Below, one piece after another: positions 45,936 through 63,314 of a stretch of 64,000 nt of DNA. The DNA lies in the IMG/VR virus record IMGVR_UViG_3300010885_040738, positions 29,185-93,184 of that record; one strand, 5' to 3'. Each line of letters starts with the position of its first letter. The stretch's first letter is position 1. The stretch is from a virus. The notes beneath the pieces are model-generated. The model did not search any database, was not told where the DNA came from, and was given only the letters and a program-made list of their open reading frames with translations. The position numbers were made by a program, and so were the translations under genes.

Positions 45936-48900
45936 ATGGCCGATCAGCAGGGATACGACGTAGCAGGGGCGCGCAAAGCTGGTCTGTCTGACGATGACAT
46001 TCTTGGGTACCTGAATCAAGATAAGTCGTACGACGTTGACGGAGCCAGAAAGTCTGGCCTTTCCAATGACGACATGATCGGGTACTTGGCCAGTCGGCCA
46101 GCACCTGCAGCGAAGGTTGCCATGGCTGGTGCCTCGCCCGCTACGCCTGCTACCAAGCCAGTGCCCATCACAGGGCCAGTCCCGCCGGGGCTGATCGGTC
46201 CGGTAGCTACACCCGAGCAGGCTTTTGAGGCTCAAAAGAATTACGTGCCGGGCATCCCGAAGATGTCGGCATTGCCCAACGATCTGGATGAGTTGCCGCG
46301 AAGCTTAGCGACAATTCGCGCTCGCGCAGAAGGCCCCGTAGATCGACGTGTGCCGCCGGGGCCAACGGGCCCGCCGACTACACCAGAGCAGGTCGTTGCG
46401 ACCCAAAAGCAACTGTCGCCGTCAATTCCTAAAATGTCGGCATTGCCGACGTCCACGATGGATGACGTTGATGAATTTCAGCGGAGGATGAACGAGCCGA
46501 CCGGCAACCGCGTACTTGACGCAATTAGGACCGGCGACTACCGCAAGCTTGTCCCGCCAGCACCGCCGGCAAAACCAGCGACGATTACTCCTGAGTCAAC
46601 CGATCAGGATATCGAAAACGCGGCATCGGAATCGTTTTTTCATCACTCCGATCAAATAGGGCGCGGTGCCGCACGTGCCCTTGGTGCATTTGTAAGCCCT
46701 GAGAGTCTGGATTCGATGGCGATGATCGCCATGACTGGTCGCGGGCTTGCTGCGTTGGCGAATACACCAAAACTGGCGAGGGCGCTTCGGAATGCGCCGG
46801 AAGTCCTGAAAGCCCTTGACGTAGCGGCAGGAGCCGCAGTCCCTGCCGCTGTTGCCGGGTACGGCGGCGCGCAGTTGCTCACGCAGCCTGCACCATCGAA
46901 CCTTGAAGAAGCAACGGAAACAGCGATAAATGCTTTGATCCTCGGCGCAGGCACCATAGGCGCGATCGAAGCTGGCAAGAGTGTCCTGTCCAGGTACGCA
47001 GCGGAAACCAGCGGCAATGTAAGGATGCCCGGCGGTGCGGAGGTCCCGGCTAAGTCTGTCGGCGGTATCCCGGAAGTTGACCCACGCCAAGCGGCCGCGA
47101 ATGCTGCGGCACTCGAATCGCAGGGGCAGAACCTTGCGGCGATGTACTGGAATGGGCGCAACCTCAACGCACCAACTGAATTCTCGACTACCGCTGGAAG
47201 GATGTTCCTTCAGCCCGCACAGATTATAAAAAAGGCCGGCGGCAAGGTTTATCGCTATGAATCGGTACTTGATGCGGACGGGAATCTGGTCGTCGGTGGA
47301 ACGCCTGAGACGGTAAGGCAGTGGCTGGAGCACCGGAAAGCCAAAGTCAATACCTATGCTGCTGTCCCGGGGGCTGGCGGAGCGCCGCTCATCGCTGATG
47401 TCGGGACTGTCCAAACTGGAGCGTCGAACCTCAAGGCTGCGCCTGGAACCTTTCAAACGGCTGACACTGCGCTTGAATCTGACGCACCTACGCCCCCCGT
47501 AACGCAGCAGCCCCTTACCCCCGTTCAGCAAGCCGCCGGCAACCTGATGCAGGATACTTTGGGGTTCAATCCCATGGCCCCGGGCACCGAGTCTGCCGCG
47601 CCGCAGCTCATTCCTGACATCAAGGCATTTCAGAAAGCCCGTGCCGCGTGGTTGAAGCAGACGAGCGCTGCACGAGATGAATGGGAACTGGAGTCGGACA
47701 AAAGGGCAGTTGCTTTCATGGAGGCCAACCCGGGCGTTACGTGGGAAGACGCCAAGGCCGCGACCGCAGACCATGCTCCAGCGCCACAGCCCGGGCAGGA
47801 GCCGCGCCCCGAGGATTTCAAGACTCTCGCGCCTCCGCCGAAAGTAGAGCCGGTCAAAGAAGTAAAGCCGGACAAGACGAAGATCGTCACGGGCCGGACG
47901 AATAATCCGCCGACAGCAGCCACCGCAACGACGCCAGAAAGCCCGGAGACAATCGCTGCCCAGGTTACGCAGCTTGGCGAAGGCACCCGCCGCGTGGTCA
48001 TGTTCCCAAGGGGGCAAGGCCAGCCAGCGCAGTTTCCCGATAACGTCGGCATCACGAGCGATGGCCTCGGCAATACCTACGCTTACAACAAAGACCTCAT
48101 CACCCCGGCAGCCGTCCAGACGGCCGCACGCAACAACACGCTCCCGGAAATCCTTGGCCACGCGCAGATGGGCATGGGTGCGCCGGACAAGTCCATGCTG
48201 CAAGGCGATGTCGTTGTCGTTGTGGTTCGTGACGCGAACGGCGTGGAGGTCCAGTCCACCGCCACGGATGAAGCGCATTTGGAGCAGACCACGGCTGCGT
48301 CTCAGGCACTTATGCCGGAGGGTGGATCGGTTGGTATTGAGACTCCGGAGCAGGCGGTTGGGGGGCGGACTGAGGCGCCCGCTGCGCTTCAGGCTCCCGG
48401 TCGGGTTGGCGGCGGGGCTGAGGCAGGAGGCGCGCCAGTCCAGCCGCCGGAGCAAGAAGTAGCCAGCGAATATGACGGCGTGCCACTTAGTGTGCTGAGC
48501 GCATTTCCTGGTATGATCAGCCCCGGTCTGGACCTCATCCCGCTAAGTAACTTTAGCCAGACCGAACAGGCTGCACTTCGTAGTGCTGGATTAGTAGAAA
48601 CCGGAACATCCAAGAGCGGAGAATATGAGGGCGTAGACTCGGGAAAACTATGGCCGTTGCGTAGCGCCGCATCCGATGCCGGTGCAGGCAAGACCAGCAC
48701 CCACATGCCAGCCCCACCAACGCAGTTCCTGCCGCCGCGTCAGGTAGGAGGGGAAACGCCCACCGGTGACGATGCCCTGATTGGGGGGCGGACTGATATC
48801 CAGGCTCCTGCGCCATTTAAGTTCCCGCTACTGGCCCCATTTAGCCAAACATTCAAAAATCCGATCGTGTCCGTCGGCAGTATCCGTGATATTTACCCAG

Positions 48901-51900
48901 AGAGCACATTTAGTCAGTCTGACTATGTAGCATCGGCAACGCCAACTCTGGATGATGACGACTTGGAAACCGGGTGGCTTTCAATCCCAGCCATTAACGG
49001 AGGCGTTCTCATTGATCCGCAAAGTGGCAAAGCACTTTCGTTCATCGGAGATGGGACCCCGGAAGCGACAGGGCGAGCCAAGTCGGAGGCGCAGACATGG
49101 GCGATAGAAAATCGCATCAAGCAGCCGATTAAATCGGCAACTGCCAGCATTCAGGCCCCCGGCAAGGTTGGGGGTGTGCCGGATGCGGTAGTTGCCAGAG
49201 ATGCGAAGCGGCTGGCAGATGCAACGCAGGCGATTGAGCAGGCAGCGGCCAGCGGTCAAAAGATTACCGGCCAGCAGATCCAGCGCCAATTCCAGTTGGG
49301 CTATGGCGCTGCGGAATCATTGCTCAAAAGCTTTGGGCTGGACTACCTTGGGAACCCGATAGCTGAGCAGCAGCCCCCCGCGCAAGAACTGACTCCCGCA
49401 GGTGCAAAGATTCTCGACACAATCCAGTCGCCCGAACCTGACGGGCTGACGGCGCGTATTGCGGAGTGGACATCGCGAGACGGCAGCAAGAAAGGTTTCT
49501 CGGTTGCGTTTCAGGACCCCGAGAGCGGCGAGTTTCTGCCCGATATTCGCACAGCAGAGACGCTGGAACAGGCTCGGCAGATTGCGCGTAAGGCGCTTGG
49601 CATACCGGAGCCCGATATCCCTGAGCACATGGAGAACTCGTGGCAGGCACTGCAAGACGCCATGCGCTCCGTTGTAGTCGGCGGCGAACGGCAGAATCAT
49701 CCAGACCCAGTTGCGATTGATGTCTTGCGCGCACTTTCAAAAACGCCCGGAGGACTCCGCGCATTCGATAGCCTTGTCGCCAGCCGAACAGAACAGCAGC
49801 CGACCTTTCTTGGCGCTGGCGTTGGCCATGCAGTTCTGGATCTCGGGAACGGCGAAGTCCTTAAACTAGGGAAACTACAGAAACAGGAGCGTTCGCGGTA
49901 TGCCTTGCAGCCGGAAGTCTCCGGTGAGATTGGCTCCGTCGCGTATGCCATCTATCCGAAACTTGATACATCTGGAATCAGTGACGCCGATGTGGACCTT
50001 GTTGATGCGCAATTGCGCTCCGAGGGCTTGGAATGGAGTGATGCAGGGAAAGACAATCTCGGGAGGGACGCCAATGGGGATCTGAAGATTCTCGATGGCG
50101 ATGTCACTCGCAAGCCAAGCGTTCCCGCGCCGCGCCCGGTTGGCGGAGAAGCCTCAATTACTGCCGCTGGTGAATTTGCAAAGAAAGAGATGGCCGAGCA
50201 GGAGCGCTTGGAATCGCTAAACACTGGCAAGTGGGCGGGAATGAGCGGTGCGCAGATAGCAGATGCCGCGAAAGAACTCGGGATTAGCACGGATGCCTTT
50301 GCTGAGGCGACCACCAGAAGGCAGCAAATAGCTGAACGCGGTCGGCTGATCGAAGCCATTCAGGCAAAAGAAGCGGCCAAGTCCCAAACCATTCTTCCCG
50401 CACCGCGCCCGGTGGGAGGGGAAGCACCAGCACCAGAAGAAAAAGCACCGACCATCTCCAAAGATCGCGCTCAAGCAATCATAGCGCGAGTCAGCGCAGT
50501 AATGGATGAGGCCGTTAAGGCGGGAGTAATCGGCCAAGAAAACGTTTCCGATGCGATCGCAATGGTTTTGCGCGATATCCCGGATGACGCCACGGATGCG
50601 GAGATGGATCAGGTCATCGCGCTTCTTCGTAGCGAAGCGCTGGCGCCCATTGACCGCGTCGAGATGAAGCACCCGCTGACGTACTTCACGGGCTCCAGCG
50701 GCCCGGGAGTAGAGAAGCGCGCCAACGAGCGCGGCGACATCGGGCTGCTGATTACTCCGCTGATTGACTACCTTGGCAAGGTCCAGCACTACCCGGTCAT
50801 CGCGGTTGATAACGGCGCATTCTCCAAGGCAACGCCGTTTAGCGCTGATAAGTTCCTTGCCCTATTGGACAAAGTCGCGGCAGATCCTGAAGTGGCGCGG
50901 AAAGTTCAGTTCGTCGTAGCCCCAGACACGCCGATGGACGCGAAAGCGACATTGGAGAAGTTCCCGATGTGGGCTGCAGAGATTCAGAAGCGCGGCCTGC
51001 CGGTCGCTCTTGCTGGCCAGAATGGGCTGGAAGACATGATCGACCAGATTCCATGGGACGATTTCGATACCCTGTTCATGGGTGGCGATGACGAATGGAA
51101 GCTTGGGGATTTCAAGGACGAGGCTCAAAAGAAAAAGTGGCTTGACCTTTTGTGGGAAGCCGGGCAGCGCGGCAAGAAGATCCATGTCGGCCGCGTCAAC
51201 AGTTTCAAGCGCTCAGATTTCTCCAATTACCAGATGGAGGCAATCTCTGTTGACGGAACCTATTTAGCGCACGGCCCGGACAAGAACCTGCCAAAGCTGG
51301 AATCCTGGCTGAATCGCATAAATGAGCGGCCATACTCGATGGGCCCAAGGTTTCCAAACCCGCGCCCCGACGAAGCAGAGGATTCGGACTGGAGCGGCGA
51401 TCCGTTGGAGTTCGCGCCGTATCGCGGTAGCGATGCAATGTGGGAAAGCCGGAACGGAAAGTTCCTGATTTTTGATCAGGGCGATAACAGTCCGCTTGGC
51501 AAGTTCAGTCTGGTTGATACCGAAACCGACGGCACTACTTACCACAAGAGCTACGCTGCAGCTGTCAAAGCCGCACGAGAGGAGGCGCCGCCGATCGCGC
51601 CCGGGCAGGCACCGGCACCGGAGCCAGCTAACGGCGAAGTAGTCTCCTGGGACGAGGCTGAAACCCTACTGGCTACGGCTGATGCTTTTGGTGGCACGAT
51701 TACGCGCATCAGCGACACGCTTATTCACGCCGAAGCAAATGGGCGCAGGTTGGCATTTGAAAAACTTCCGGATGGGAAAGTCAGGGTAGGTCCTATCAGA
51801 GCAGAAGCACCCGCGGCCGCTCCCGCGCCAACGGCCCCAACCCCCGCACAGCCCAACTACGCACCTGAAGGCATCACGAAAGCAGAGAAATATGTAGGCC

Positions 51901-54900
51901 GGCTCGCATATCAGGCAAAGAAAGATTACGCCCGCGCCTATCTGGACCACCTGACGCTGGACGAAGCAGCGCCCGCTCGCGGCAAACTTTCAGAGGCATT
52001 AGAGAAGGAAGTAAAAAACGAGATCAACAAGCATCTGGGCAAGCGACTGGCAAAGGCTCCGGCCGCCAAGGCTCCTGCAGCCCCAGCCGTTCGCGAACTT
52101 GCCGACTTCCTCAAGCCCGGGGCCCCGCCGATTGACTGGTGGAAGACCGACGGCATCAAAGCCGACTGGGAGACGGTTCGTAAGGCTTACGCTGCACGTG
52201 CGCAGCGACCGGAAGGTGCCGGGCAGACATTCCTGGACTACACCCGGGATTGGGAAGACAATCGCGCCGAGGCTGGGTTTGACCGCCGCACTGCGGAAGC
52301 CGCAACTCAGGTTGAAGCGCCCACAACTCAGGTTGCAGCACTCACCGATCTCGACAGGTCTCTGCTGGAGTATCTGGGCAAAACCAAAACGTCGGAAGAT
52401 CTGCTGTATTTTGAGGGAGCAGGCGAAGGCGAGCAGGGGCTGAAGGACATGAACAAGGCCCTCGCTTCACTTGCAAATCGTGGACTTGTTGCCCGCGAGT
52501 ACAGCCAGACCGGCGGTGATACCAAGTTCTGGCGCACGCCTGAAGGCACCAAGGCGCTGCGCGAGAAGAAGCCAGTCACCCCGCAGATCCAGACCGGCGT
52601 GGCCGGGGCGACTCCGCTGGGGGTGAAGCCAGAGCAGATGGAAGCCACGCAGGCAGATATCCTGCTCCGAACGGCGACAAGGAAAATTGACGAGCTGATC
52701 GAGCAGGCTGAAACAGCCCTGCGTAACCAAGGCGAGAACAATGCGCGAGCGGTTCTCGACCAACTATCTGCATTCCTGCCTGCAGCACGCGAGCGCGTAG
52801 CGAAGCTTGCCTCATCTGCAGATGGCGGCTATGTGGACCGGCTGGAGTCGGCTATTGCTCGGGCTGAGGCTGTCATCGGGCGGTACGCCAAGAAACCCGC
52901 CGCTCGCGCCGCGCAGCCTTCAGCGGAACGGTTTGACGAACTCTCGAAGGAACTTGCCGAAATTGAGAGGTCGCCTCAGTACCGGCAGGACACAGAGGCT
53001 GGCAGAAACGCCCGGGAGTCAGCAAATTCTCTCAGTGTAGACGTGGCATTCCATCGCCCGGCGGCCATCGCCAGGGCGCAGGCTGAGATCGACGCGGAGA
53101 AGGCGGCTAAGAGCAGCAAGGCATGGAAGTACGAACTGAAAGCGGAGGGCAAGTGGAGCCAGCCGCTCGGGAGCCCGTTGGCGACGGAAGCGGAGGCGAA
53201 AGCCGCTGGCCAGAGCCACCTTGACCGGTGGATGATGGCTGAGGATGTCCGGACCGCGGAAGTTAACGAAAAGCCGACGCACACCTGGAACGAGGCGGAG
53301 CGCAGGCAGGAACCGATCCAGAAAGAGGCAGCAAATGCAGAAGGAAACACCACAAGCGGGGCCGCGACTAAGTCCGATGCAGGTAGCAAGACAGGCCCCA
53401 GAAGGCCTGGGGAAGCGGATACTGCGTCATTGGCAGAAGTATCGGCCGAAGACAGTTCAGAGGCTCAAGGCGAAGGGGCTCCTGAACGAGACGGTGAACG
53501 AGGCGGCAGAGGAGCACGCCCAGACGGTCAGCCAAATGCTGGGGGCGGGGTTCGGAGCGGATCAGGCGGACGAAGTGGCTCGGGAACCGTGGATCAGTCC
53601 GGAGACACGGACGGCGGACGACGAGGACCTGGAGACTTAGAGCGCCAAACCGAGGGCGGAGACTTCCGTATTTCCGACGCGGATCATATCGGAGAGGGTT
53701 CTCCGCGGCAGAAACTGAACGGCAACCTTGACGCGATCCGGATCGTAAAAGCCATTGAGAAAGACCCTCGTCCTGCAACTCCAGAGGAACAGGAGAAGTT
53801 GGCGAAGTATGTCGGGTGGGGTTCGCTGGCAAACGTTTTCGACTGGCGGAAGTCTGAGTTTGAGGGTGCTCGCGAAGAACTGAAGAAATTGCTGACGCCA
53901 GACGAGTACCGGGCTGCCGAGAAGTCGACATATAACGCTCATTACACGTCCCCGCTTGTGATTAGCTCTATGTGGGACGCCATGAAGCGACTGGGCGTAA
54001 AACCGGGGTTCAGCGTGATTGAGCCATCCATGGGCGTTGGCAACTTCTTCGGCTTGCAGCCCGACGGCCTCATGCCATCGCGACGGACCGGCGTGGAGCT
54101 CGACAAGATCACCGGCGCGATCGCGAAATTGCTGTACCCTGACTCAAATGTCCAGGTGACCGGATTCGAGCGCATTCAGTTGCCGCACAACTTCTTTGAC
54201 GTAGCCATCGGGAATGTCCCATTCGGCAACGTCGGAGTGGTGGACCCTTCTTACAGAAAGACTCCGGCCGCTACCAGCGCTATTCACAACTACTTCTTTG
54301 TTAAGTCCCTTGACTTGACGCGGCCCGGCGGCATCGTTGCCTTCATCACGTCTCGTTACACCATGGACAGTCTTGGCAAGGAAGTCAGGGACATGATCGC
54401 AGACAGGGCCAACCTGATCGGCATGTTCCGGCTGCCGAACACTGCGTTCAAGGGGAACGCCGGCACGTCGGTAGTCACGGATGTCATCTTCCTTCAGAAG
54501 CGAGCGCCCGGCGAAGCGCGGACTGGTCCGTCCTTTATTGAGACGAAAAAGGTTGCCACTGCTGACGGCACTGAGACTGATCTCAACGAGTACTACGCCG
54601 CACGCCCGGAAATGATGCTTGGGGAACTGTCAACGCAGGGCACTCAGTACGCGGCAGATAGCCAAACGCTTATCGGGAAACTGACTCCTGAGCTTCTCCA
54701 AAACGCAGTCAACCAGCTGCCGGAAAACATTTTCTCCGAATGGCATGCCGATACACCTTCGTTTGACGGCGAGTTTTACCAGCTTGGGGATGAGGTCAAG
54801 GACGGCGGGTATGCCATCAAGGATGGCGTCATCGTCCAGCGCGAGGGGAATATCTATCGCCCGACGGTAGTGGGCAAGACGCAGGGCGAGCGCATTCGCG

Positions 54901-57900
54901 GGATGATCCCCGTTCGTGCTGCTCTGCGTAAAGTTTTTGCTACACAACTAGAGGCTGAGAGCTCAGAGAAAGCTATTCTCGACGCACGCAAGGAGCTCAA
55001 TAAGGCTTACGACAAGTTTGTAAAGGAGCACGGCTATCTCAGCAGCGTTGCGAATTCACGCGCCCTCGGTGACGATCCAGACTACTCTCCGCTGGCCGGT
55101 GCGTTAGAGGACTGGGACCGCGACACCAAAACGGCAGCTAAAACCGACATTTTCACAAAGCGGACCATCGAACGTCCTTCTTTTCCTGATAAGGCCGACA
55201 CAGCTGCCGAGGCCATGGCAATGGTCCTGAATGAAAAAGGGCGACTCGACTGGAACCGCATGCAGGAACTCACCGGCAAGTCACTGGATGAGTTACGTGC
55301 AGAGTTAACAGGCCAGGTGTTCAAGAATCCTGACGGGCAAATCTGGGAGACCGAGGATGAGTACCTTTCAGGCAACGTCCGAAAGAAACTGCGTATAGCT
55401 GAGGCCGCGGCAGGTATTGACCCCTTCTACCAACGCAACGTTGACGCCCTGCTGGCTATCCAGCCCGCCGACCTTCTCCCAGAACAAATCAAAATCGTCC
55501 CTGGCGCTCACTGGATTCCGGCTACGACCATCCAGGAATTCCTTCGCGAAGTTCTGGGCCTTGATAGCGCGAAGGTCCACCACGCGGCGGCCGTGGCAAC
55601 GTGGTCTATCAATGTCCCCAACAGCTACGAACTTGATCGTACGCAAAACAAGAGTTTTGGGACTGAGAATTTCACAGGCGTCAAGCTGTTCGATATGTCG
55701 CTGAACGGCAAGGCCCCGCGTGTTTATCGGCCAGGCCCGGGCGATACCAGAATCTTTGACCCCAAAGCGACGGCGGTCGCCTTGGCGGCTCAGGATGCGC
55801 TCAACGATCGCTTTAGAGAGTGGATATGGCATAATCCATCACGCGCCCGAGAACTCGCGGAGATTTATAACCGGGAAATCAACAACATCCGGAACGTGGA
55901 GCATAACGGCGCGCATTTGACCCTCCCGGGCAGTAACCCGGCGATTGTGCTGCGGCCGCACCAGAAGAACGCTATCTGGCGAGCGCTGAAGACTGGCAAC
56001 ACGCTGCTCGCGCATGAAGTCGGAGCCGGAAAGGCCCAACCTCTCGATGCTAAAATCCTAACTCCGTCCGGATGGAAGTTGATGGGCGATATGACCGTCG
56101 GAGATCACGTGATTGCCGGCGACGGGTCGGTTACATCGGTTGAGGCCGTTTTTCCCCAAGGCGAGAAAGACATCTTTCGGGTTGAATTCAGCGATGGGAG
56201 TGCTACCGAGTGCTGTGACGAACACCTTTGGCTTACACAGACATATCAGGAGCGGAATCAGGCGCAACGGGCCGAGAAGGCAGAAAAAGACTGGAATTGC
56301 GGGAAGGCGGAGGTCCGGTCTCTAGCGGAAATCCGTAATACGCTGATCGCGCCACATCTGAATGCGAAGAATCACAGTATCCCTATTGTCGGTGCCGTTC
56401 ATTTCAATGCTCAGCCGGTCCCTCTGCATCCTTACCTACTCGGTACTTTGATTGGTGATGGGTGTTTCCGTGGGCACGGATCTGTAAGCATTTCGTCCGC
56501 CGATAAAGAACTTTTGGACGCGATTAGCCTTCTACTGCCAGCAGAATGCGAACTTCGACATCAGTCAGCCTACGACTACGTAATTGCTTGGAATGGACAG
56601 GCGCGGTACGCAGTCGGTGACGGAATGGTTCCGTCGCACCCGGTCGTAAACGCAGTTAAAAGCCTTGGCCTTTGGGGGAAGTACTCGTACGAAAAGCATA
56701 TCCCGGAATGCTACCTATTTAATTCGCAAGAAGTCAGGGCCAGCCTGCTGCAGGGGTTGATGGATACCGACGGGACTGTCACGCGGCGCGGCACTTCGGT
56801 TGAGTATTGCACGACTTCCCCCAAACTCGCGGCGCAGGTCACTGATCTTGTCAGATCTCTCGGCGGCATTGTCGCTCTTCGCTCTAAGCAGCCAGGTTAT
56901 ACGCACCAAGGTGTCAGGAAGATAGGACGTGTCGCATTTACGCTGACATTGAGCCTGCCTCCGTCAGTGCTTCCCTTCCGTCTTTCCAGAAAAGCAATAC
57001 TGGTCACGCCGAAGACAAAATACCACCCGGCCCGCTATATCACGAACGTGGCCCCTGTTGGCAGGAAGCAGGCGCAGTGCATTCGCGTGGCGCATCGTTC
57101 TCACCTGTATGTAACGGACGATTACATCGTCACCCACAACACATGGGAAATGGTTGGTATCGCCATGGAATCCCGTCGGCTTGGCCTGTCTAAAAAACCG
57201 ATGCTGGTTGTGCCAAACCACATGGCAGAGCAGTTCACGAATGAGTTCCTGCAGCTATACCCGGCAGCGCGCATCCTCACGATCGGGAAAGAGGACTTCG
57301 CCGCAGATAAGCGCAAGCGTGCCACTGCGCGCATCTCCGGCGGGAACTGGGATGCAGTCATCATCAGGCATAGCAGTTTTGAAAAGATCCCGGTCTCGGA
57401 TGCAACATTCAAGGCGTTCATTGACCGTCAGGTTGAAGAATTAAAGGCTGCGCTGGAAGCGCAGGAAGCTGAGACGGCCTCGGCACAAACAACCGGGAGA
57501 CGCGGACGCGGAGGGAAGAAGAAGGTCGATAAGTCCGTCAAAGAAATCCAGAAGGCGATTGAGCGGCTGGCTGTAAAACTGGAAAAGCGACTCAATCGCG
57601 ACAAGAAAGATGACGCAGTCACGTTTGAAGAGTTGGGGGTTGACCTTCTGCTAGTGGATGAAGCCCACGCCTTCAAGGCGCTCCCAATCGTCACCAGGCG
57701 CACGCGAGTTGCTGGTATCCCGAACCGCGAAAGCAACCGGGCGACCGATATGTTCATGAAGACCCAGTACGTGGGCGACCTGAATGGCGGGCGTCGTGGC
57801 GTTGTATTCGCCACCGGCACTCCGGTGACCAACACCATGGCAGAACTTTACAACATGCAGAGGTACCTGCAGTTGAAAACTCTGCGCGAGGCAGGGATCG

Positions 57901-60900
57901 AGCACTTTGATGCTTGGGCGAACGCATTCGGGATGATCCGCACTGGCGTCGAGCTTGACGTATCCGGCAAGGGATTTAGGGAGAATACGCGGTTCGCGAG
58001 ATTTGTCAACATCCCCGAATTGATGGCGATATACAAGCGCGTTGCCGACATTAAGACGGCGGCTATGCTGAACCTGCCCACGCCGGAACTTTTCACCGGC
58101 AACGTTGAGCCCATTAGCGTAAAGGAGACCCCTGAGCTAACCGCCTACGTGGACTACTTGATTGACCGGACTGACGTTATCCGTGGCGGCGGAGTGGACC
58201 CGAAAGACGACAACATGCTGAAGGTCGTCAGCGAGGGCAAAAAAGCGGCTCTTGATATGCGCCTTGTAGACCCGGAGGCGCAGGACCGGCCCGAGAGCAA
58301 GGTCAACACCGCTGTCGGGAATATTTACAAGATATGGGAGGAGACGAGCGACGATAAACTAACCCAGTTGGTTTTTTGCGACCTGTCGGTACCGTTGTCA
58401 GCCAAGTCACGCAAGGCCAAGAAGCAAAAGCCGACAGACGAAGAACAGCAGGCAGAAGATGAGCTCGACGCAGTTCCGGAAGCGGCCGGTGAGGCTGCTG
58501 GGTTCAGCGTCTATGACGACATGAAGGCGAAGCTTGTCGCAAGGGGCATTCCGGCAAAAGAAATCGCCTTTATCCACGACTACGATAGCGACGACGCCAA
58601 GCAGGACCTGTTTGATAGCGTCAAAGCGGGCCGCGTACGTGTGCTTTTCGGATCAACCGAAAAAATGGGTGTTGGTACCAACGTTCAGCGCCGCATGATT
58701 GCGCTCCACCACATGGATTCGCCGTGGCGTCCGGCTGACATTACTCAAAGGGAAGGGCGGATCAAGCGGCAGGGGAACAAGAATCCAAAAATACACATCT
58801 TCCAATACCTCACGGAGGGCTCCTTCGACGCCTTCATGTGGCAGACGCTGGAGACCAAGGCGATGTTTATCGCCCCGATTCTATCGGGCGATTCCAGCAT
58901 CCGTGAGATGGAAGACATCGGGATGGTGCTTCCCAGCGCCGCCGAGTTCAAGGCCATGGCGTCAGGTAACCCGATTATTAAAGAAAAGATCGGCACCGAT
59001 TCGGAGTTGGCACGGCTCGACGCGCAGCGGAATGCTTTCCGCCGGCAACAGGCTGGCGTGCGGGAGCAGATCGAAAAGCTTCCTCGCGATATTGCTTGGA
59101 AGCAAAGAGATATTGCGCGAAGGCAAAGCCAGTACGATTTTGTGGAGGCACATCAAGCCGAGGGATATACGATCGAAGGGGTTGCGTTCACTGGCGCTGA
59201 TGCGCGGAAGAACGCGGCAGCCGCGCTACACGCCGAATTGAGCGGCACCCTCCGTTTAGGTGGTTCGCCATCTAAAGTGGGGACATACAAGGGACTTGAT
59301 ATCGTTGCGTGGCCTGGGAGCGGCAGTTACCCGCGCCTCACCGTCAACATGCCCGGCAGTGCTTATGATTCGCAGTTCGGCGAAATAGGGATTTCTTTCC
59401 CTGTGTCTACCAACGAAGATAATCCGCTCGGCACACTTCAGAGCATTGAGGCTGGGGTTAGGATTTACATTACCTCACCGGAAAAGCAAAGTCTGGAGCT
59501 TGAGGAACTACTTCGTAAGCAGAAAGACCTTGAAGACCAAGGCGAAAAGCCGTGGCCGTACGAGAATCGCTACAACACGCTGGTAAAGAGAAAAATCGAG
59601 ATCGATGCCGAGCTTGACCAAAGTGAAGCAGAGAGAGTCGGCGGGGCCGAAGACGGCGAGGATACGGTCAAGCGCGTGGAGCGGCGCGGTGTCTCATATC
59701 AGGAGCGCAAAAAGCTTCTACTTGCACGTGAACGTGGCGAGAATGTTGAGTACCCGCCGCTACAGGCCCGGCACGAAGTTGGGAGTGCGCCGATGCCATC
59801 TGCGCCCGCGATCAGAACGACGAAGAACTCTGGGCCCATGTCGGCATATACACCCGGAGATGGCGAACTGGCTCCTCGCCTAAATGCTGACAGAACCCCC
59901 GTGCTTCCTACTTGGTACAGGCAGGAAATTGACGGGAAGAATTTTTACTCTGATGGCGTTTTCGTAATCCAAGGAGATACGCCAGAAGGCAAGATCGTCA
60001 ATAATGATGGGCTGAAATCATACGTGAAGCCGCAAGATGGGCAGGTAGAGATGGGCCCGCTCGCGTACTCGATTGACAAGCCAAGAGATGACGGGTCAGT
60101 CCTGCGACGTGTCTGGTTGAGCCCGCGGTTGGCGGTTGACTCCATCCCGTTCGACTACGTCAAAAAACGTTTCCCCGACGCAACTTTCTGGGCCACCGAT
60201 AATCCGACCAAGCCGGTGACGGTAAGGTCTGGCGATGATGTGGTTGCCGTCATCATGCCGCTGCGCGAAACTGCTCCGCCAGCAAATATCGAGCCCGCAC
60301 TGTCAGCCAAGCCCCGCACATCCTCCGTAACCCTCGGCATGGGGCCCGGGCAGGAGATGTACGAGGCGACGGCGAAGTACATCAAAGAAGAGACGCTGCC
60401 ATGGGTAAAGCGCATTCTGAGCGAAAAGGCGACCATGGGCCGCGCTCTGGTGGAGATCCTTGACCCGAGGTACAACACGCCGCGCCCGATCATGGACACG
60501 GTTTCCAAGATGGCTGGCGGCCGGTCCATGGCCGAATACCTGGTTGCGAAGAAACTGGACAACTGGAGCCAGAAGTTCAGCAAGATGAGCCGTCAAGACT
60601 CAATTAACTTTGTGGACCGCGTGAAGGCTGGCTTACCGCAGCCCGACGACGACCTGCAGGACGCCGCGGACTTCATGCGCCGGATGGACGATCAGGTCTG
60701 GAGCTCCATCCCCGAGGACCGGCGGCCGGCGTATCTCGAAAACCACTTCCGCGTCATGTGGAAGGTGATTCCGGATTCCAATAAGGCGATTGCTGCACGT
60801 GAGGCCCGGGCGCAAGAGCTTGTGGACGGCATGACCGATCCGACGCGCCAAGCATACGCGCAGGACTACCTCGCCTACATTACAGAGCAGACTCCTGATG

Positions 60901-63314
60901 AGCCGGAGATCCCGGAAGGCGTTCAGCCGGCCGTGGCCAGAAAGATCCGCCTCCGGATTGACAAGATCCTTCAGAGCAAAGCTGGGGGCACCGGCTACGT
61001 CGGGGCTTCGCGCAAAAACCTTCGAGGCACCCGAAGCTTTCTCAACCAGCACACTCTGGAGTCAATGTCCGAGGGCATGGAGCACGGAGGTGAACCGGTC
61101 TCCTACAACCCGCTGCTGATGTTTGCGGCCCACTACAACGACGCCATGAAGTACGTGACGGCGTTGCGGATGATCGAAAAGTTTAAGGCAGACGGCACAG
61201 CACGTTTCCTGAAATCCGGGAAGCCGATGTTTGATGGTTACGCCAAACTGGATGACAATGCGGCTCGGGTGGCGCTGAAGACGCCGCAAGGGTTTGTTGC
61301 GACCGGCGAATGGGTATTCCAGCGCAACGCGGCAAACCTTCTGAACAACATGCTTGGGCGCGATTACCTGCGTGAGGTCTACGAGGACGCCCCGATGTCG
61401 CGGTTTACCGGCCGGGCCGGACGTTCACTGCTCAACATCAAAAACGCCTACACTGCGATCGAGCTCGGGTGGTCACCGTATCACGCGGTATTTGAGGGAA
61501 TCGAAGCGGTCGGCTCAATGATGGGCATCGGACTGCGGGAAAGCTACAACACCGGCATCGTCCCGCTGGTGTCGTTCGCGCTGGGGATTCCGACTGATGT
61601 TGGGGTGACGAGCGCAAAGACAGCTTTCAAGAACATCGCGAAGGGCGTCGGAACATTAGCAACGTCCCCTTGGGCGTTCGTGTCCGCTGCGCAGGAAGGG
61701 GCGCAGGCTCGCCGCGGCTGGACCGAAGAGGTGATTGGCGCCGTCGACAATGTAAAGCCGAAGCTGTTTGACAAGCTTCTTCCGGAAGTCGCCGTTGATT
61801 ATCTGATGGCCCGGCGCGCTGAGCGTGCGATGAAGAAGACCGTCGCCGGGCGTCAGTTCGTCAAAAACAACCCAGCTGCAGCGCAGGCAATTCCGTACTA
61901 CTTCATCGGCGGCGGGAAACTTGGCCTGCCGGAGGAATTCGAGACACACGGGGCAGAAGAGCTTCAGCGGCACTGGAACGACATGCTGGACAAGCAGCGG
62001 ACCGGCAATCAGCGGGTGAGTTCGGGTCTCCGTGCCGGGCTCAAGGCGCTGCCGGCGTCCAGCCAGTACATGCTGAAGCCTTTGTTCCAGAACTACATTC
62101 CAAATCTGAAACTGGCGTTTTTCCTCCGCGAGTTTGGGCTTGCTCAGGTAGAGCGCGCCGGCGAGCTGGAGCGCGGCGAGATTACTTTGGATCAGATTGC
62201 CCGGCTGGTCGTCGGGTCAGTGGAAAACAGATTTGGCGAAATGAACTTTGATCGCCTGTTCTGGGATCGCACCATGAAGACCTTCCTGCAGATCCTGTTC
62301 CGCTCTGTTACCTGGAAGATCGGCGAGCTGTCGGAACTGGGGCGGGCGGTTTACGGTCAAGGGAAAGGTTTGCAACGTGATATTGGCAAGGGCCGCATCC
62401 CGCGGCTTGACCCAAGCATGGGCTGGCTTGTTGGCGTTGCCCTTGCGGCCGCGCTGGTCGGCACCGTGTTGACCATGGCGACGACAGGGCACCCGCCGAA
62501 AGATATGCAGGGGTTGCTTTACCCTGTCATTGATGACAGCACGGGCCTGACCGTCGCACTTGCGTCTTATATCAGGAACTACTTCCACATGAAGCATGAC
62601 CCGGTTGGCTATGTGAAGTCTTCGTTTCAGGGCGAGGTCGGCAAGGTCATGGACGTCATCAATAATCAGGATTTCCGGCATCAGAAGATCTGGCAGGACG
62701 ATGACCCGATGTACCAGCAGGCTATGGACGCAATGCTGCACCTGCTTCCGGAGCCAATCACTTCTGGCGGGATCAAGAAGATCCGGCAGGGCGACACCAA
62801 AGAGGGCATAGCCAGCATGCTCGCGTTCTCAAAGGCACCCGCCTACATCGACAAGACCCCGGCTGAACTGCTGGCGCAGGACATTGCCGGACAGCATCGC
62901 AGTGTTGGCGGGCGGTCCAAGGCCGCAGCAGACAAGGCGGAAGCCGCCAGCCGCATTCGCCGCGCATACAAAGCGGGCAACACAAAGGGCGCAGAGGACC
63001 TGATCGCCAAACAGGTCGCCGCCGGTGTTATTTCCAAGTCCGACGGCAACACCTACCGCAATCAGGCAGGGAGAAGCCCTCTCGACGCCATGGTGAAGCA
63101 GTTCTCCGTATCCGAAGCTCTTCGCGTCTACGACAAGGCCGAGGCTGACGAAAAGAAAACGCTGGGGCCAATTGTCAAAGCAAAGGTCTGGCGCGCCAAG
63201 AACTATCACCCAGCAGAATTCGGCGATCCCGGGAGCAACACATGGAACCTTGCGACGAAACACTTTGGGGTCAAACCGCCACCGGCCGCACGTCAGGGGC
63301 AGGTGACTCAGTAA
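45936..63314 (+). CDS. Giant polyvalent virion protein: TGT-like, DarB-type MTase-helicase, intein
   Basis: The 5,792-codon protein has these parts in order. Residues 4-53: two YDVxGARKxGLSxDDxxGYL units. 60-200: Pro-rich, with TPEQ...IPKMSALP twice. 225-320: hydrophobic helices. 330-1250: linkers with P-x-x-V-G-G repeats. 1254-1392: possible kinase-like segment. 1576-1795: TGT/DpdA-like barrel (VDNGAF, FVVAPD, GGDDEWKLG, GKKIHVGRVNSFKR). 2137-2220: winged-helix-like. 2594-2860: adenine methyltransferase (motif I EPSMGVGNFF; NVPF at 2760). 3345-4300: SNF2-type helicase (VGAGK-T split by an intein, VDEAH at 3907, TQREGRIKRQG). About 5429: ENRFGEMNFDRLFWDR, PLxRFG-like. 5496: membrane helix. 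P1 DarB and Bcep22-type giant proteins are injected with the DNA to block restriction. Confidence 0.85.
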   Translation: MADQQGYDVAGARKAGLSDDDILGYLNQDKSYDVDGARKSGLSNDDMIGYLASRPAPAAKVAMAGASPATPATKPVPITGPVPPGLIGPVATPEQAFEAQKNYVPGIPKMSALPNDLDELPRSLATIRARAEGPVDRRVPPGPTGPPTTPEQVVATQKQLSPSIPKMSALPTSTMDDVDEFQRRMNEPTGNRVLDAIRTGDYRKLVPPAPPAKPATITPESTDQDIENAASESFFHHSDQIGRGAARALGAFVSPESLDSMAMIAMTGRGLAALANTPKLARALRNAPEVLKALDVAAGAAVPAAVAGYGGAQLLTQPAPSNLEEATETAINALILGAGTIGAIEAGKSVLSRYAAETSGNVRMPGGAEVPAKSVGGIPEVDPRQAAANAAALESQGQNLAAMYWNGRNLNAPTEFSTTAGRMFLQPAQIIKKAGGKVYRYESVLDADGNLVVGGTPETVRQWLEHRKAKVNTYAAVPGAGGAPLIADVGTVQTGASNLKAAPGTFQTADTALESDAPTPPVTQQPLTPVQQAAGNLMQDTLGFNPMAPGTESAAPQLIPDIKAFQKARAAWLKQTSAARDEWELESDKRAVAFMEANPGVTWEDAKAATADHAPAPQPGQEPRPEDFKTLAPPPKVEPVKEVKPDKTKIVTGRTNNPPTAATATTPESPETIAAQVTQLGEGTRRVVMFPRGQGQPAQFPDNVGITSDGLGNTYAYNKDLITPAAVQTAARNNTLPEILGHAQMGMGAPDKSMLQGDVVVVVVRDANGVEVQSTATDEAHLEQTTAASQALMPEGGSVGIETPEQAVGGRTEAPAALQAPGRVGGGAEAGGAPVQPPEQEVASEYDGVPLSVLSAFPGMISPGLDLIPLSNFSQTEQAALRSAGLVETGTSKSGEYEGVDSGKLWPLRSAASDAGAGKTSTHMPAPPTQFLPPRQVGGETPTGDDALIGGRTDIQAPAPFKFPLLAPFSQTFKNPIVSVGSIRDIYPESTFSQSDYVASATPTLDDDDLETGWLSIPAINGGVLIDPQSGKALSFIGDGTPEATGRAKSEAQTWAIENRIKQPIKSATASIQAPGKVGGVPDAVVARDAKRLADATQAIEQAAASGQKITGQQIQRQFQLGYGAAESLLKSFGLDYLGNPIAEQQPPAQELTPAGAKILDTIQSPEPDGLTARIAEWTSRDGSKKGFSVAFQDPESGEFLPDIRTAETLEQARQIARKALGIPEPDIPEHMENSWQALQDAMRSVVVGGERQNHPDPVAIDVLRALSKTPGGLRAFDSLVASRTEQQPTFLGAGVGHAVLDLGNGEVLKLGKLQKQERSRYALQPEVSGEIGSVAYAIYPKLDTSGISDADVDLVDAQLRSEGLEWSDAGKDNLGRDANGDLKILDGDVTRKPSVPAPRPVGGEASITAAGEFAKKEMAEQERLESLNTGKWAGMSGAQIADAAKELGISTDAFAEATTRRQQIAERGRLIEAIQAKEAAKSQTILPAPRPVGGEAPAPEEKAPTISKDRAQAIIARVSAVMDEAVKAGVIGQENVSDAIAMVLRDIPDDATDAEMDQVIALLRSEALAPIDRVEMKHPLTYFTGSSGPGVEKRANERGDIGLLITPLIDYLGKVQHYPVIAVDNGAFSKATPFSADKFLALLDKVAADPEVARKVQFVVAPDTPMDAKATLEKFPMWAAEIQKRGLPVALAGQNGLEDMIDQIPWDDFDTLFMGGDDEWKLGDFKDEAQKKKWLDLLWEAGQRGKKIHVGRVNSFKRSDFSNYQMEAISVDGTYLAHGPDKNLPKLESWLNRINERPYSMGPRFPNPRPDEAEDSDWSGDPLEFAPYRGSDAMWESRNGKFLIFDQGDNSPLGKFSLVDTETDGTTYHKSYAAAVKAAREEAPPIAPGQAPAPEPANGEVVSWDEAETLLATADAFGGTITRISDTLIHAEANGRRLAFEKLPDGKVRVGPIRAEAPAAAPAPTAPTPAQPNYAPEGITKAEKYVGRLAYQAKKDYARAYLDHLTLDEAAPARGKLSEALEKEVKNEINKHLGKRLAKAPAAKAPAAPAVRELADFLKPGAPPIDWWKTDGIKADWETVRKAYAARAQRPEGAGQTFLDYTRDWEDNRAEAGFDRRTAEAATQVEAPTTQVAALTDLDRSLLEYLGKTKTSEDLLYFEGAGEGEQGLKDMNKALASLANRGLVAREYSQTGGDTKFWRTPEGTKALREKKPVTPQIQTGVAGATPLGVKPEQMEATQADILLRTATRKIDELIEQAETALRNQGENNARAVLDQLSAFLPAARERVAKLASSADGGYVDRLESAIARAEAVIGRYAKKPAARAAQPSAERFDELSKELAEIERSPQYRQDTEAGRNARESANSLSVDVAFHRPAAIARAQAEIDAEKAAKSSKAWKYELKAEGKWSQPLGSPLATEAEAKAAGQSHLDRWMMAEDVRTAEVNEKPTHTWNEAERRQEPIQKEAANAEGNTTSGAATKSDAGSKTGPRRPGEADTASLAEVSAEDSSEAQGEGAPERDGERGGRGARPDGQPNAGGGVRSGSGGRSGSGTVDQSGDTDGGRRGPGDLERQTEGGDFRISDADHIGEGSPRQKLNGNLDAIRIVKAIEKDPRPATPEEQEKLAKYVGWGSLANVFDWRKSEFEGAREELKKLLTPDEYRAAEKSTYNAHYTSPLVISSMWDAMKRLGVKPGFSVIEPSMGVGNFFGLQPDGLMPSRRTGVELDKITGAIAKLLYPDSNVQVTGFERIQLPHNFFDVAIGNVPFGNVGVVDPSYRKTPAATSAIHNYFFVKSLDLTRPGGIVAFITSRYTMDSLGKEVRDMIADRANLIGMFRLPNTAFKGNAGTSVVTDVIFLQKRAPGEARTGPSFIETKKVATADGTETDLNEYYAARPEMMLGELSTQGTQYAADSQTLIGKLTPELLQNAVNQLPENIFSEWHADTPSFDGEFYQLGDEVKDGGYAIKDGVIVQREGNIYRPTVVGKTQGERIRGMIPVRAALRKVFATQLEAESSEKAILDARKELNKAYDKFVKEHGYLSSVANSRALGDDPDYSPLAGALEDWDRDTKTAAKTDIFTKRTIERPSFPDKADTAAEAMAMVLNEKGRLDWNRMQELTGKSLDELRAELTGQVFKNPDGQIWETEDEYLSGNVRKKLRIAEAAAGIDPFYQRNVDALLAIQPADLLPEQIKIVPGAHWIPATTIQEFLREVLGLDSAKVHHAAAVATWSINVPNSYELDRTQNKSFGTENFTGVKLFDMSLNGKAPRVYRPGPGDTRIFDPKATAVALAAQDALNDRFREWIWHNPSRARELAEIYNREINNIRNVEHNGAHLTLPGSNPAIVLRPHQKNAIWRALKTGNTLLAHEVGAGKAQPLDAKILTPSGWKLMGDMTVGDHVIAGDGSVTSVEAVFPQGEKDIFRVEFSDGSATECCDEHLWLTQTYQERNQAQRAEKAEKDWNCGKAEVRSLAEIRNTLIAPHLNAKNHSIPIVGAVHFNAQPVPLHPYLLGTLIGDGCFRGHGSVSISSADKELLDAISLLLPAECELRHQSAYDYVIAWNGQARYAVGDGMVPSHPVVNAVKSLGLWGKYSYEKHIPECYLFNSQEVRASLLQGLMDTDGTVTRRGTSVEYCTTSPKLAAQVTDLVRSLGGIVALRSKQPGYTHQGVRKIGRVAFTLTLSLPPSVLPFRLSRKAILVTPKTKYHPARYITNVAPVGRKQAQCIRVAHRSHLYVTDDYIVTHNTWEMVGIAMESRRLGLSKKPMLVVPNHMAEQFTNEFLQLYPAARILTIGKEDFAADKRKRATARISGGNWDAVIIRHSSFEKIPVSDATFKAFIDRQVEELKAALEAQEAETASAQTTGRRGRGGKKKVDKSVKEIQKAIERLAVKLEKRLNRDKKDDAVTFEELGVDLLLVDEAHAFKALPIVTRRTRVAGIPNRESNRATDMFMKTQYVGDLNGGRRGVVFATGTPVTNTMAELYNMQRYLQLKTLREAGIEHFDAWANAFGMIRTGVELDVSGKGFRENTRFARFVNIPELMAIYKRVADIKTAAMLNLPTPELFTGNVEPISVKETPELTAYVDYLIDRTDVIRGGGVDPKDDNMLKVVSEGKKAALDMRLVDPEAQDRPESKVNTAVGNIYKIWEETSDDKLTQLVFCDLSVPLSAKSRKAKKQKPTDEEQQAEDELDAVPEAAGEAAGFSVYDDMKAKLVARGIPAKEIAFIHDYDSDDAKQDLFDSVKAGRVRVLFGSTEKMGVGTNVQRRMIALHHMDSPWRPADITQREGRIKRQGNKNPKIHIFQYLTEGSFDAFMWQTLETKAMFIAPILSGDSSIREMEDIGMVLPSAAEFKAMASGNPIIKEKIGTDSELARLDAQRNAFRRQQAGVREQIEKLPRDIAWKQRDIARRQSQYDFVEAHQAEGYTIEGVAFTGADARKNAAAALHAELSGTLRLGGSPSKVGTYKGLDIVAWPGSGSYPRLTVNMPGSAYDSQFGEIGISFPVSTNEDNPLGTLQSIEAGVRIYITSPEKQSLELEELLRKQKDLEDQGEKPWPYENRYNTLVKRKIEIDAELDQSEAERVGGAEDGEDTVKRVERRGVSYQERKKLLLARERGENVEYPPLQARHEVGSAPMPSAPAIRTTKNSGPMSAYTPGDGELAPRLNADRTPVLPTWYRQEIDGKNFYSDGVFVIQGDTPEGKIVNNDGLKSYVKPQDGQVEMGPLAYSIDKPRDDGSVLRRVWLSPRLAVDSIPFDYVKKRFPDATFWATDNPTKPVTVRSGDDVVAVIMPLRETAPPANIEPALSAKPRTSSVTLGMGPGQEMYEATAKYIKEETLPWVKRILSEKATMGRALVEILDPRYNTPRPIMDTVSKMAGGRSMAEYLVAKKLDNWSQKFSKMSRQDSINFVDRVKAGLPQPDDDLQDAADFMRRMDDQVWSSIPEDRRPAYLENHFRVMWKVIPDSNKAIAAREARAQELVDGMTDPTRQAYAQDYLAYITEQTPDEPEIPEGVQPAVARKIRLRIDKILQSKAGGTGYVGASRKNLRGTRSFLNQHTLESMSEGMEHGGEPVSYNPLLMFAAHYNDAMKYVTALRMIEKFKADGTARFLKSGKPMFDGYAKLDDNAARVALKTPQGFVATGEWVFQRNAANLLNNMLGRDYLREVYEDAPMSRFTGRAGRSLLNIKNAYTAIELGWSPYHAVFEGIEAVGSMMGIGLRESYNTGIVPLVSFALGIPTDVGVTSAKTAFKNIAKGVGTLATSPWAFVSAAQEGAQARRGWTEEVIGAVDNVKPKLFDKLLPEVAVDYLMARRAERAMKKTVAGRQFVKNNPAAAQAIPYYFIGGGKLGLPEEFETHGAEELQRHWNDMLDKQRTGNQRVSSGLRAGLKALPASSQYMLKPLFQNYIPNLKLAFFLREFGLAQVERAGELERGEITLDQIARLVVGSVENRFGEMNFDRLFWDRTMKTFLQILFRSVTWKIGELSELGRAVYGQGKGLQRDIGKGRIPRLDPSMGWLVGVALAAALVGTVLTMATTGHPPKDMQGLLYPVIDDSTGLTVALASYIRNYFHMKHDPVGYVKSSFQGEVGKVMDVINNQDFRHQKIWQDDDPMYQQAMDAMLHLLPEPITSGGIKKIRQGDTKEGIASMLAFSKAPAYIDKTPAELLAQDIAGQHRSVGGRSKAAADKAEAASRIRRAYKAGNTKGAEDLIAKQVAAGVISKSDGNTYRNQAGRSPLDAMVKQFSVSEALRVYDKAEADEKKTLGPIVKAKVWRAKNYHPAEFGDPGSNTWNLATKHFGVKPPPAARQGQVTQ
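53335..53640 (+). CDS. Small phage protein nested in another frame of the giant gene
   Basis: ATG 53335, with GAGG 6 nt upstream, opens 101 codons in the +1 frame of the giant gene, ending at TAG 53640. The sequence has the pattern of a known small phage family: PMQVARQAPEGLGKRILRHW, QKYRPKTVQRLKAKGLLNET, a helix VNEAAEEHAQTVSQMLGAG and A-R-E-P-W-I. The H-W-x3-R-P...L-x-x-x-G-x-L motif is typical; TnpV-like proteins are distant relatives. In the giant frame the same bases give Gly/Ser/Arg/Asp low complexity. So this frame is the older, selected one. The stop lies about 20 codons before the methyltransferase domain. Confidence 0.7.
   Translation: MQKETPQAGPRLSPMQVARQAPEGLGKRILRHWQKYRPKTVQRLKAKGLLNETVNEAAEEHAQTVSQMLGAGFGADQADEVAREPWISPETRTADDEDLET
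56034..57140 (+). other. Class 3 intein with LAGLIDADG endonuclease
   Basis: A 369-residue intein splits the helicase Walker A motif between Lys and Thr (AHEVGAGK | intein | TWEMVG). It begins with Ala (AQPLDAKILTPSGWKLMGDM), not Cys or Ser. It carries the class 3 trio: Trp at intein residue 66 (CDEHLW), Cys at 349 (QCIRVAHRSHLYVTDD) and Thr at 367 (IVTHN). The endonuclease has both motifs, YLLGTLIGDG near 136 and LLQGLMDTDG near 238, with the acidic residues intact. The frame is open throughout, so splicing should restore GAGKT. Class 3 inteins are known mainly from phages and prophages. Confidence 0.88.

Follow-up and report, generated by a model that had tools for sequence, protein, structure and literature searches.

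Does a giant polyvalent protein of a virus carry an embedded base-exchange enzyme of the tRNA-guanine transglycosylase (TGT)/DpdA type, and, if so, what would such an enzyme act on? The question is raised by a 64,000-nucleotide stretch of viral DNA, referred to here as the window, that spans bases 29185-93184 of IMG/VR virus record IMGVR_UViG_3300010885_040738, a record 93,184 bases long. Phage DNA modification is usually thought to be made by enzymes expressed during infection, and as a consequence an incoming genome depends on the marks of its previous host. If the embedded domain is what it appears to be, an injected base-exchange enzyme could mark the phage genome on arrival. A preliminary description had placed such a domain at 50661-51320, inside a DarB-type protein that also carries an adenine methylase and a helicase, and we found the following arrangement.

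45936..63314 (+): a single uninterrupted ORF for a 5,792-aa polyvalent protein.
50670..51335 (+): TGT/DpdA-like TIM-barrel domain, residues about 1579-1800 of the 5,792-aa ORF.
52887..56057 (+): DarB-like adenine-methylase-type part, matched by phrog_10089 over query-part residues 818-1874.
57138..59672 (+): DarB-like SNF2/helicase part, matched by phrog_10089 over query-part residues 335-1179.

The DarB-type setting was confirmed, in that the ORF downstream of the domain matched phrog_10089, annotated "DarB-like antirestriction," in two parts (E = 9e-263 and 5e-240), with an Eco57I match (PF07669, E = 4.7e-7) and an NVPF motif at 54213 in the methylase part and a Helicase_C match (E = 9e-4) and a DEAH motif at 57648 in the helicase part. 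Ahead of the giant ORF, on the same strand, lie genes that match terminase, portal, and tail proteins, and a position after the virion genes is also reported for phage polyvalent protein genes. P1 DarB, which shares with the window protein the methylase-helicase dyad and the location of its gene after the virion genes, is described by Iyer 2017 (PMC5512222) as a component of the virion head that gives DNA protection in cis. Gene order, what is known of the family, and this literature are consistent with the packaging and injection of the giant protein, which by analogy may travel as DarB does.

All of the motifs previously listed for the domain lie at their given places and in their given order within the single open frame 45936-63314 (+): VDNGAF at residue 1624 (50805), FVVAPD at 1659 (50910), LAGQNG at 1692 (51009), GGDDEWKLG from 1715, and GKKIHVGRVNSFKR at residue 1746 (51171) of the giant ORF. 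A conserved motif beyond that list, ISVDGTYLAHGPD, starts at residue 1770 (51243). A family HMM run on the window matched 50679-51335 (E = 4.4e-67), so that the location of the domain given in the preliminary description stands, whereas its end does not, the domain reaching slightly further, to 51335.

The domain belongs to the short-protein family phrog_15826 (212 aa, annotated as of unknown function), which matched it over family positions 3-204 (E = 4.8e-43). Searching with the domain by tblastn, we found matches of 27-42% identity in 24 of 50,697 phage records and further matches in 149 of 72,556 plasmid records, and alignment-based scans gave 141 viral relatives, the best 80 of which were taken further, and 26 loci in bacterial genomes. 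The relatives came with the alignment query; a single-sequence viral scan found none. Several members from mycobacteriophages and Arthrobacter phages are annotated "DpdA-like tRNA-guanine transglycosylase," a name that is annotation, not proof, of the putative deazaguanine insertion by this short family. No Pfam model matched the domain, its relatives taken together, or CAjan DpdA, a verified enzyme, and no DpdA model of NCBIfam or PADLOC matched the domain, the PADLOC model scoring even CAjan DpdA at only E = 0.0013. Because the curated DpdA models gave no match, we call the domain DpdA-like and do not file it as DpdA. Another TIM barrel, EAL, gave weak scores in 10 of 78 members (best E = 0.02), which we took as fold noise.

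An alignment of 94 members revealed 12 invariant residues, namely, D50, P88, D89, Q120, F139, G142, H175, G177, R178, R184, D198, and G199 (domain residue n is protein residue 1575+n), each present in 94/94 members, and the window copy keeps them all. The residues that may make up the active site are as follows.

50808..50810 (+): Asp1625 (VDNGAF), at the end of strand 3, invariant in 94/94; aligned by hhalign to DSGAF of DpdA, the TGT counterpart being DSGGF by motif order.
50925..50927 (+): Asp1664 (APD), just past strand 4, invariant in 94/94; the counterpart of LD.IGD in DpdA in the hhalign register.
51018..51020 (+): Gln1695 (GQNG, usually AQDG), just past strand 5, invariant in 94/94; the counterpart of QGG of TGT in the register of alignment A1 versus 14 TGTs (E = 0.0033).
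51183..51185 (+): His1750 (IHVGRVN), on strand 7, invariant in 94/94; the His of the corresponding phage DpdA motif is invariant too (H187, 11 phage DpdA proteins).
51252..51254 (+): Asp1773 (SVDGT), on strand 8 of the model, invariant in 94/94; candidate nucleophile.

The catalytic aspartates that the preliminary description had asked after therefore have candidates that are present and invariant across the family. Judged by its position in the predicted structure, Asp1773 is probably the nucleophile. These residues bear on the idea that the barrel has degenerated and lost its activity, surviving for a structural or DNA-binding purpose. Two observations speak for it: the window copy departs from the usual motifs at some positions (TPMD versus VVGD and GQNG versus AQDG), and the fused copies have no linked supply genes (see below). 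Against this, the window copy retains every family-invariant residue, and we regard an inactive barrel as quite improbable.

We predicted the structure of the translation of 50661-51371 with AlphaFold2 from 78 sequences and obtained a confident model (pLDDT 94.1, pTM 0.90) with eight strands and helices between most of them, a TIM barrel that has D50, D89, Q120, G142, H175, and D198 within strands 3 to 8 or immediately after them. In VIA-align 2, the first match was Cap10 of type IV CBASS (9ntn_B, Z 15.5, 215 residues), followed by Zymomonas mobilis TGT (Z 14.1-14.7 over 210-216 residues); the number of TGT rows is no independent evidence, because all are entries of one enzyme, and the fold alone is unspecific, because one pyruvate kinase (Z 14.3) ties with TGT. 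Foldseek against the PDB likewise gave numerous TIM barrels, TGT appearing from rank 10, below transaldolase and triosephosphate isomerase, and in a viral model library ranks 3 to 5 were taken by queuine tRNA-ribosyltransferases that phages Mufasa8, Bella96, and Sonali encode. A sequence search of solved structures, with a single sequence and with profile A3, gave only chance-level matches. By fold alone, the model is a TIM barrel for which the TGT type is favored, in agreement with the TGT-like barrel proposed earlier, its best neighbors (Cap10 and TGT) being TGT-superfamily enzymes.

That the best single structural match is Cap10 suggests a different function, in which the barrel would not exchange bases in nucleic acid but would bind or remove a 7-deazaguanine group elsewhere and so counter deazaguanine-based immunity; Cap10 itself is described as a transglycosylase-family enzyme remodeled to bind a deazaguanylated protein terminus. 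The similarity to Cap10 is, however, one of fold only, and the Z gap to TGT is <1, a tie. The conserved residues match an exchange site, and the neighborhoods of stand-alone relatives, with their transporter and preQ0 genes, point to a supply of free base. We therefore think a Cap10-like role improbable and return to base exchange.

The specific tie to the TGT/DpdA type is the profile comparison with phage DpdA. Alignment A3, which omits members more than 0.9 alike, the partial-match loci L044, L114, L123, and L124, the split copy in L001, one of the three L096 copies, and every record of named phages and plasmids, matched a set of 11 phage DpdA proteins, one of them the CAjan enzyme, which has been studied by experiment, by hhalign at E = 3e-6 (probability 88%), and alignment A1 matched the same 11 at E = 2.9e-7; the best of 99 column-permuted controls reached E = 0.025. 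The alignment pairs DSGAF, D.IGD, and IGG of DpdA with DNGAF, PD..D, and GG, respectively, of the short family. The phage DpdA proteins of 9g and CAjan share with the short family the order of the DNG/DSG, D..GD, IGG, strand-7 His, and strand-8 Asp motifs and the association with preQ0 genes but differ in length (~300 aa versus ~205 aa), and here, in addition, the domain is part of a giant protein. Thus, relatedness to TGT/DpdA is borne out by the family match, the TIM barrel, and the controlled DpdA comparison. A chance occurrence of the motifs is ruled out by the full-length family, fold, and profile evidence, and we regard the call of a TGT/DpdA-like domain in the giant ORF as secure, with very little doubt attached to it.

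In Arthrobacter phage Sonali, a true DpdA is encoded alongside a short DpdA-like protein (L003 5956-6573 and 8943-9833), together with queC, queD, queE, and folE; this phage offers a natural setting in which to ask whether target sites differ between the two proteins. The Cellulomonas genome of L100 carries a short DpdA-like locus and also a bacterial DpdA (L130 1066-3377, complement; PADLOC E = 7e-182) with a 366-aa ORF upstream.

Direct comparison with TGT gave a different outcome. The Pfam TGT model PF01702, which matched in 14/14 control genomes, had no match to the domain, and hhalign of A3 gave E = 0.12 against 5 TGTs and E = 0.25 against 14 TGTs; the best direct value, E = 0.0033 for A1 against the 14 TGTs, is to be set beside permuted controls that reached E = 0.0024 with the 5-TGT set. 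Direct TGT homology by profile is thus not significant beside the permuted controls, and DpdA itself matches TGT weakly (E = 0.0013 with 5 TGTs and 0.014 with 14).

This comparison is relevant to whether the target might be host tRNA (or other RNA), with the wobble base stripped or swapped early in infection by the same fold and chemistry. The fold does match tRNA-guanine transglycosylase, the weak profile alignment shows the same motif order, and polyvalent proteins often attack host functions according to Iyer 2017 (PMC5512222). Even so, we consider a tRNA target unlikely. The tRNA TGT enzymes have a zinc site with Cys ligands, whereas the 237-aa window domain contains 0 cysteines, and therefore the zinc site cannot be present. 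The domain is also much shorter (~220 aa) than the bacterial enzymes (386-427 aa in five TGTs), its strand-7 invariant His is common to the DNA-modifying DpdA, and its partner domains are a DNA methylase and a helicase. Furthermore, phage 9g DpdA did not complement an Escherichia coli tgt deletion, as reported by Hutinet 2019. DNA is thus the substrate that we favor.

The stand-alone relatives place the short family in a genomic setting. We counted 117 stand-alone loci, the viral relatives among them being drawn from the best 80 of 141, and found a gene for a queuosine-precursor transporter of the Vut_1/QPTR (YhhQ) type at 61 of them, within 600 nt and on the same strand in 60 cases and within 100 nt in 49 of these. 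The identity of the transporter was supported by four seeds matched to PF02592 (E = 1.4e-9, 1e-9, 2.3e-11, and 3.6e-12), and after clustering at 0.9 likeness the count was 47 of 90 loci; the base rate for a transporter-type gene, obtained by one-query tblastn, a different and less sensitive method, was 37 of 50,697 phage records. A further 17 of the 117 loci have queC, queD, queE, or folE, so that 78 have import or synthesis genes, both kinds occurring together in only one, and at 13 loci que genes are present without a detectable DpdA. The remaining 39 loci, some of them short, have neither transporter nor preQ0 genes, and a neighbor of this kind is therefore no defining feature of the family. 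A TGT search in 16 of the 26 genomes with bacterial loci gave a match above the cutoff in 5 and none above it in 11, and in one of the 16 the weak TGT match was the bacterial DpdA. This context supports a 7-deazaguanine role for the short family and agrees with salvage and insertion of the base in hosts that lack a queuosine pathway.

TGT chemistry is reversible in principle, and the exchange could also run in the direction of removing modified bases, for example, by erasing host dpd self-marks. Attacks on host functions by polyvalent proteins, described in the literature, would be in keeping with such a role, but the adjacency of stand-alone relatives to importers and synthesis genes fits insertion, and we hold removal to be very improbable. 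Hutinet 2019 reports YhhQ homologues in some phages, with no correlation with any phage group. A point against insertion is that the same study detected no deazaguanine in DNA from Orion, a phage that encodes DpdA without synthesis genes.

The pairing of a transporter gene with a short DpdA-like gene (L008 3467-4618, L006 3357-4507, L005 5490-6651, and 58 further loci) occurs in phages, in plasmids, and in mostly actinobacterial genomes. It looks like a salvage-and-insert DNA modification cassette, of which we found no description in the literature searched. A fusion of a QPTR transporter to a bacterial TGT, described in PMC11130926, shows the same pairing of a precursor importer with a TGT-type enzyme; that enzyme is a tRNA TGT of bacteria, whereas here the protein is short and DpdA-like, is found in phages and plasmids, and has the transporter as a separate neighbor. 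The short DpdA-like family thereby gains a genomic setting: about half of the loci examined have a gene of the queuosine-precursor-transporter type next to it. Because of this adjacency, salvage-and-insert DNA modification can be put to a direct test in mycobacteriophages and Arthrobacter phages that are in culture.

Several individual loci have further features. In ReqiPine5, a PAPS-reductase-like gene (gp02, L006 4601-5518) directly adjoins the short DpdA-like gene and the transporter gene and could encode a further tailoring enzyme. In L096 (1-3352), three tandem short DpdA-like copies are interleaved with two queC-type ORFs and followed by queE and queD. In the Seuratvirus phage phiG7 (L001 7938-8530), a short-family copy is split over two overlapping ORFs and adjoins dpdA and DNA polymerase genes; it is possibly a frameshifted remnant, and CAjan has no short-family gene at the corresponding place.

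The supply genes seen beside stand-alone relatives were not found with the fused domain. As previously stated for deazaguanine synthesis, the Pfam models for QueC, PTPS/QueD, and FolE had 0 matches in the whole, possibly incomplete, 93,184-base record, and neither did the Vut_1 and TGT models match there; phmmer with two phage QueE queries found no QueE in the window. None of the six fused records (the present one and the five described below) has a Vut gene, and supply of the base by the host is therefore an assumption.

No fusion of this kind had been known to the preliminary description, but the fusion is not unique, because, among the loci kept (on the viral side, the 80 best of 141), five further non-redundant viral contigs have the domain embedded in ORFs of at least 2,499 aa. 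These are L019, L020, L021 (L022 is the same), L025 (L149 is the same), and L148. L025 and L148 are of the DarB type, as is the window protein, and L019, L020, and L021 have another architecture, L020 containing InPase, RadC, Kinase-PolyVal, and ART-PolyVal domains of the kind described in polyvalent proteins. L025 and L148 are 44-45% identical to the window protein in the domain and 36-49% identical in the methylase region; since most of the protein between these two regions does not align, the domain is a conserved island. In a tree of 94 members, the fused domains, six in all, group together as a single clade with support 0.98, and this monophyly suggests that the giant-protein lineage of the domain arose once and was then shuffled between architectures. 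Two of these giant ORFs contain an additional, partial match to the domain HMM (L019 residues 899-962 and L025 residues 2442-2479), which may be either the remnant of a duplication or noise.

Named phages did not yield the fusion: we examined 8 of the 24 phage records with a tblastn match, and in 0/8 was the domain in a giant annotated protein, ZS04_101, labeled DarB-like, being a 213-aa stand-alone protein. A term search of the main text of Iyer 2017 (PMC5512222) found no TGT, queu-, guanine, or archaeosine, and, by title and abstract, papers outside subscription journals yielded no deazaguanine, transglycosylase, or DpdA in polyvalent or DarB proteins. What is new about the fusion is the combination; each of its two components is of a known kind.

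We propose, with moderate confidence, that the domain is a minimal base-exchange enzyme within a DarB-type polyvalent protein that would draw on the host deazaguanine pool and act most likely on incoming phage DNA. The giant protein would be packaged and would enter with the DNA as P1 DarB does. A guanine of the incoming DNA would be flipped into the barrel, an aspartate (probably Asp1773) would attack its glycosidic bond, and the guanine would give way to a 7-deazaguanine, for example, preQ0 of the host; the base would have to come from the host because the phage record has no known supply genes. The SNF2-type motor would move along the same DNA, and the methylase on the same chain would mark adenines. 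With motor, methylase, and barrel acting on the same DNA, the genome would as a result gain two kinds of protective mark ahead of any phage gene expression. The full scheme, in which an injected enzyme on one chain with a motor and an adenine methylase swaps guanines of the incoming genome for a host 7-deazaguanine, is put forward more tentatively, as a serious possibility that falls somewhat short of being probable. We know of no precedent for the protection of a viral genome by base exchange that precedes expression and is independent of replication. If the proposal is right, the repertoire of polyvalent proteins gains a base-exchange domain.

Two other regions of the giant protein deserve mention. 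Upstream of the domain, window residues 1251-1388 (about 49686-50099) resemble residues 1531-1696 of L148 (32% identity, E = 4e-8) and contain a kinase-like glycine-rich motif near residue 1291, with no Pfam match to this patch. Downstream, a likely intein of 369 aa (56034-57140, +; residues 3367-3735), with a LAGLIDADG homing endonuclease match (E = 7e-11), sits precisely within the Walker A motif of the helicase (GAGK|T), just upstream of the helicase part, at a place where the relative L025 has no insert. It has Ala as its first residue and HN as its last, followed by Thr, and may be a class 3 intein.
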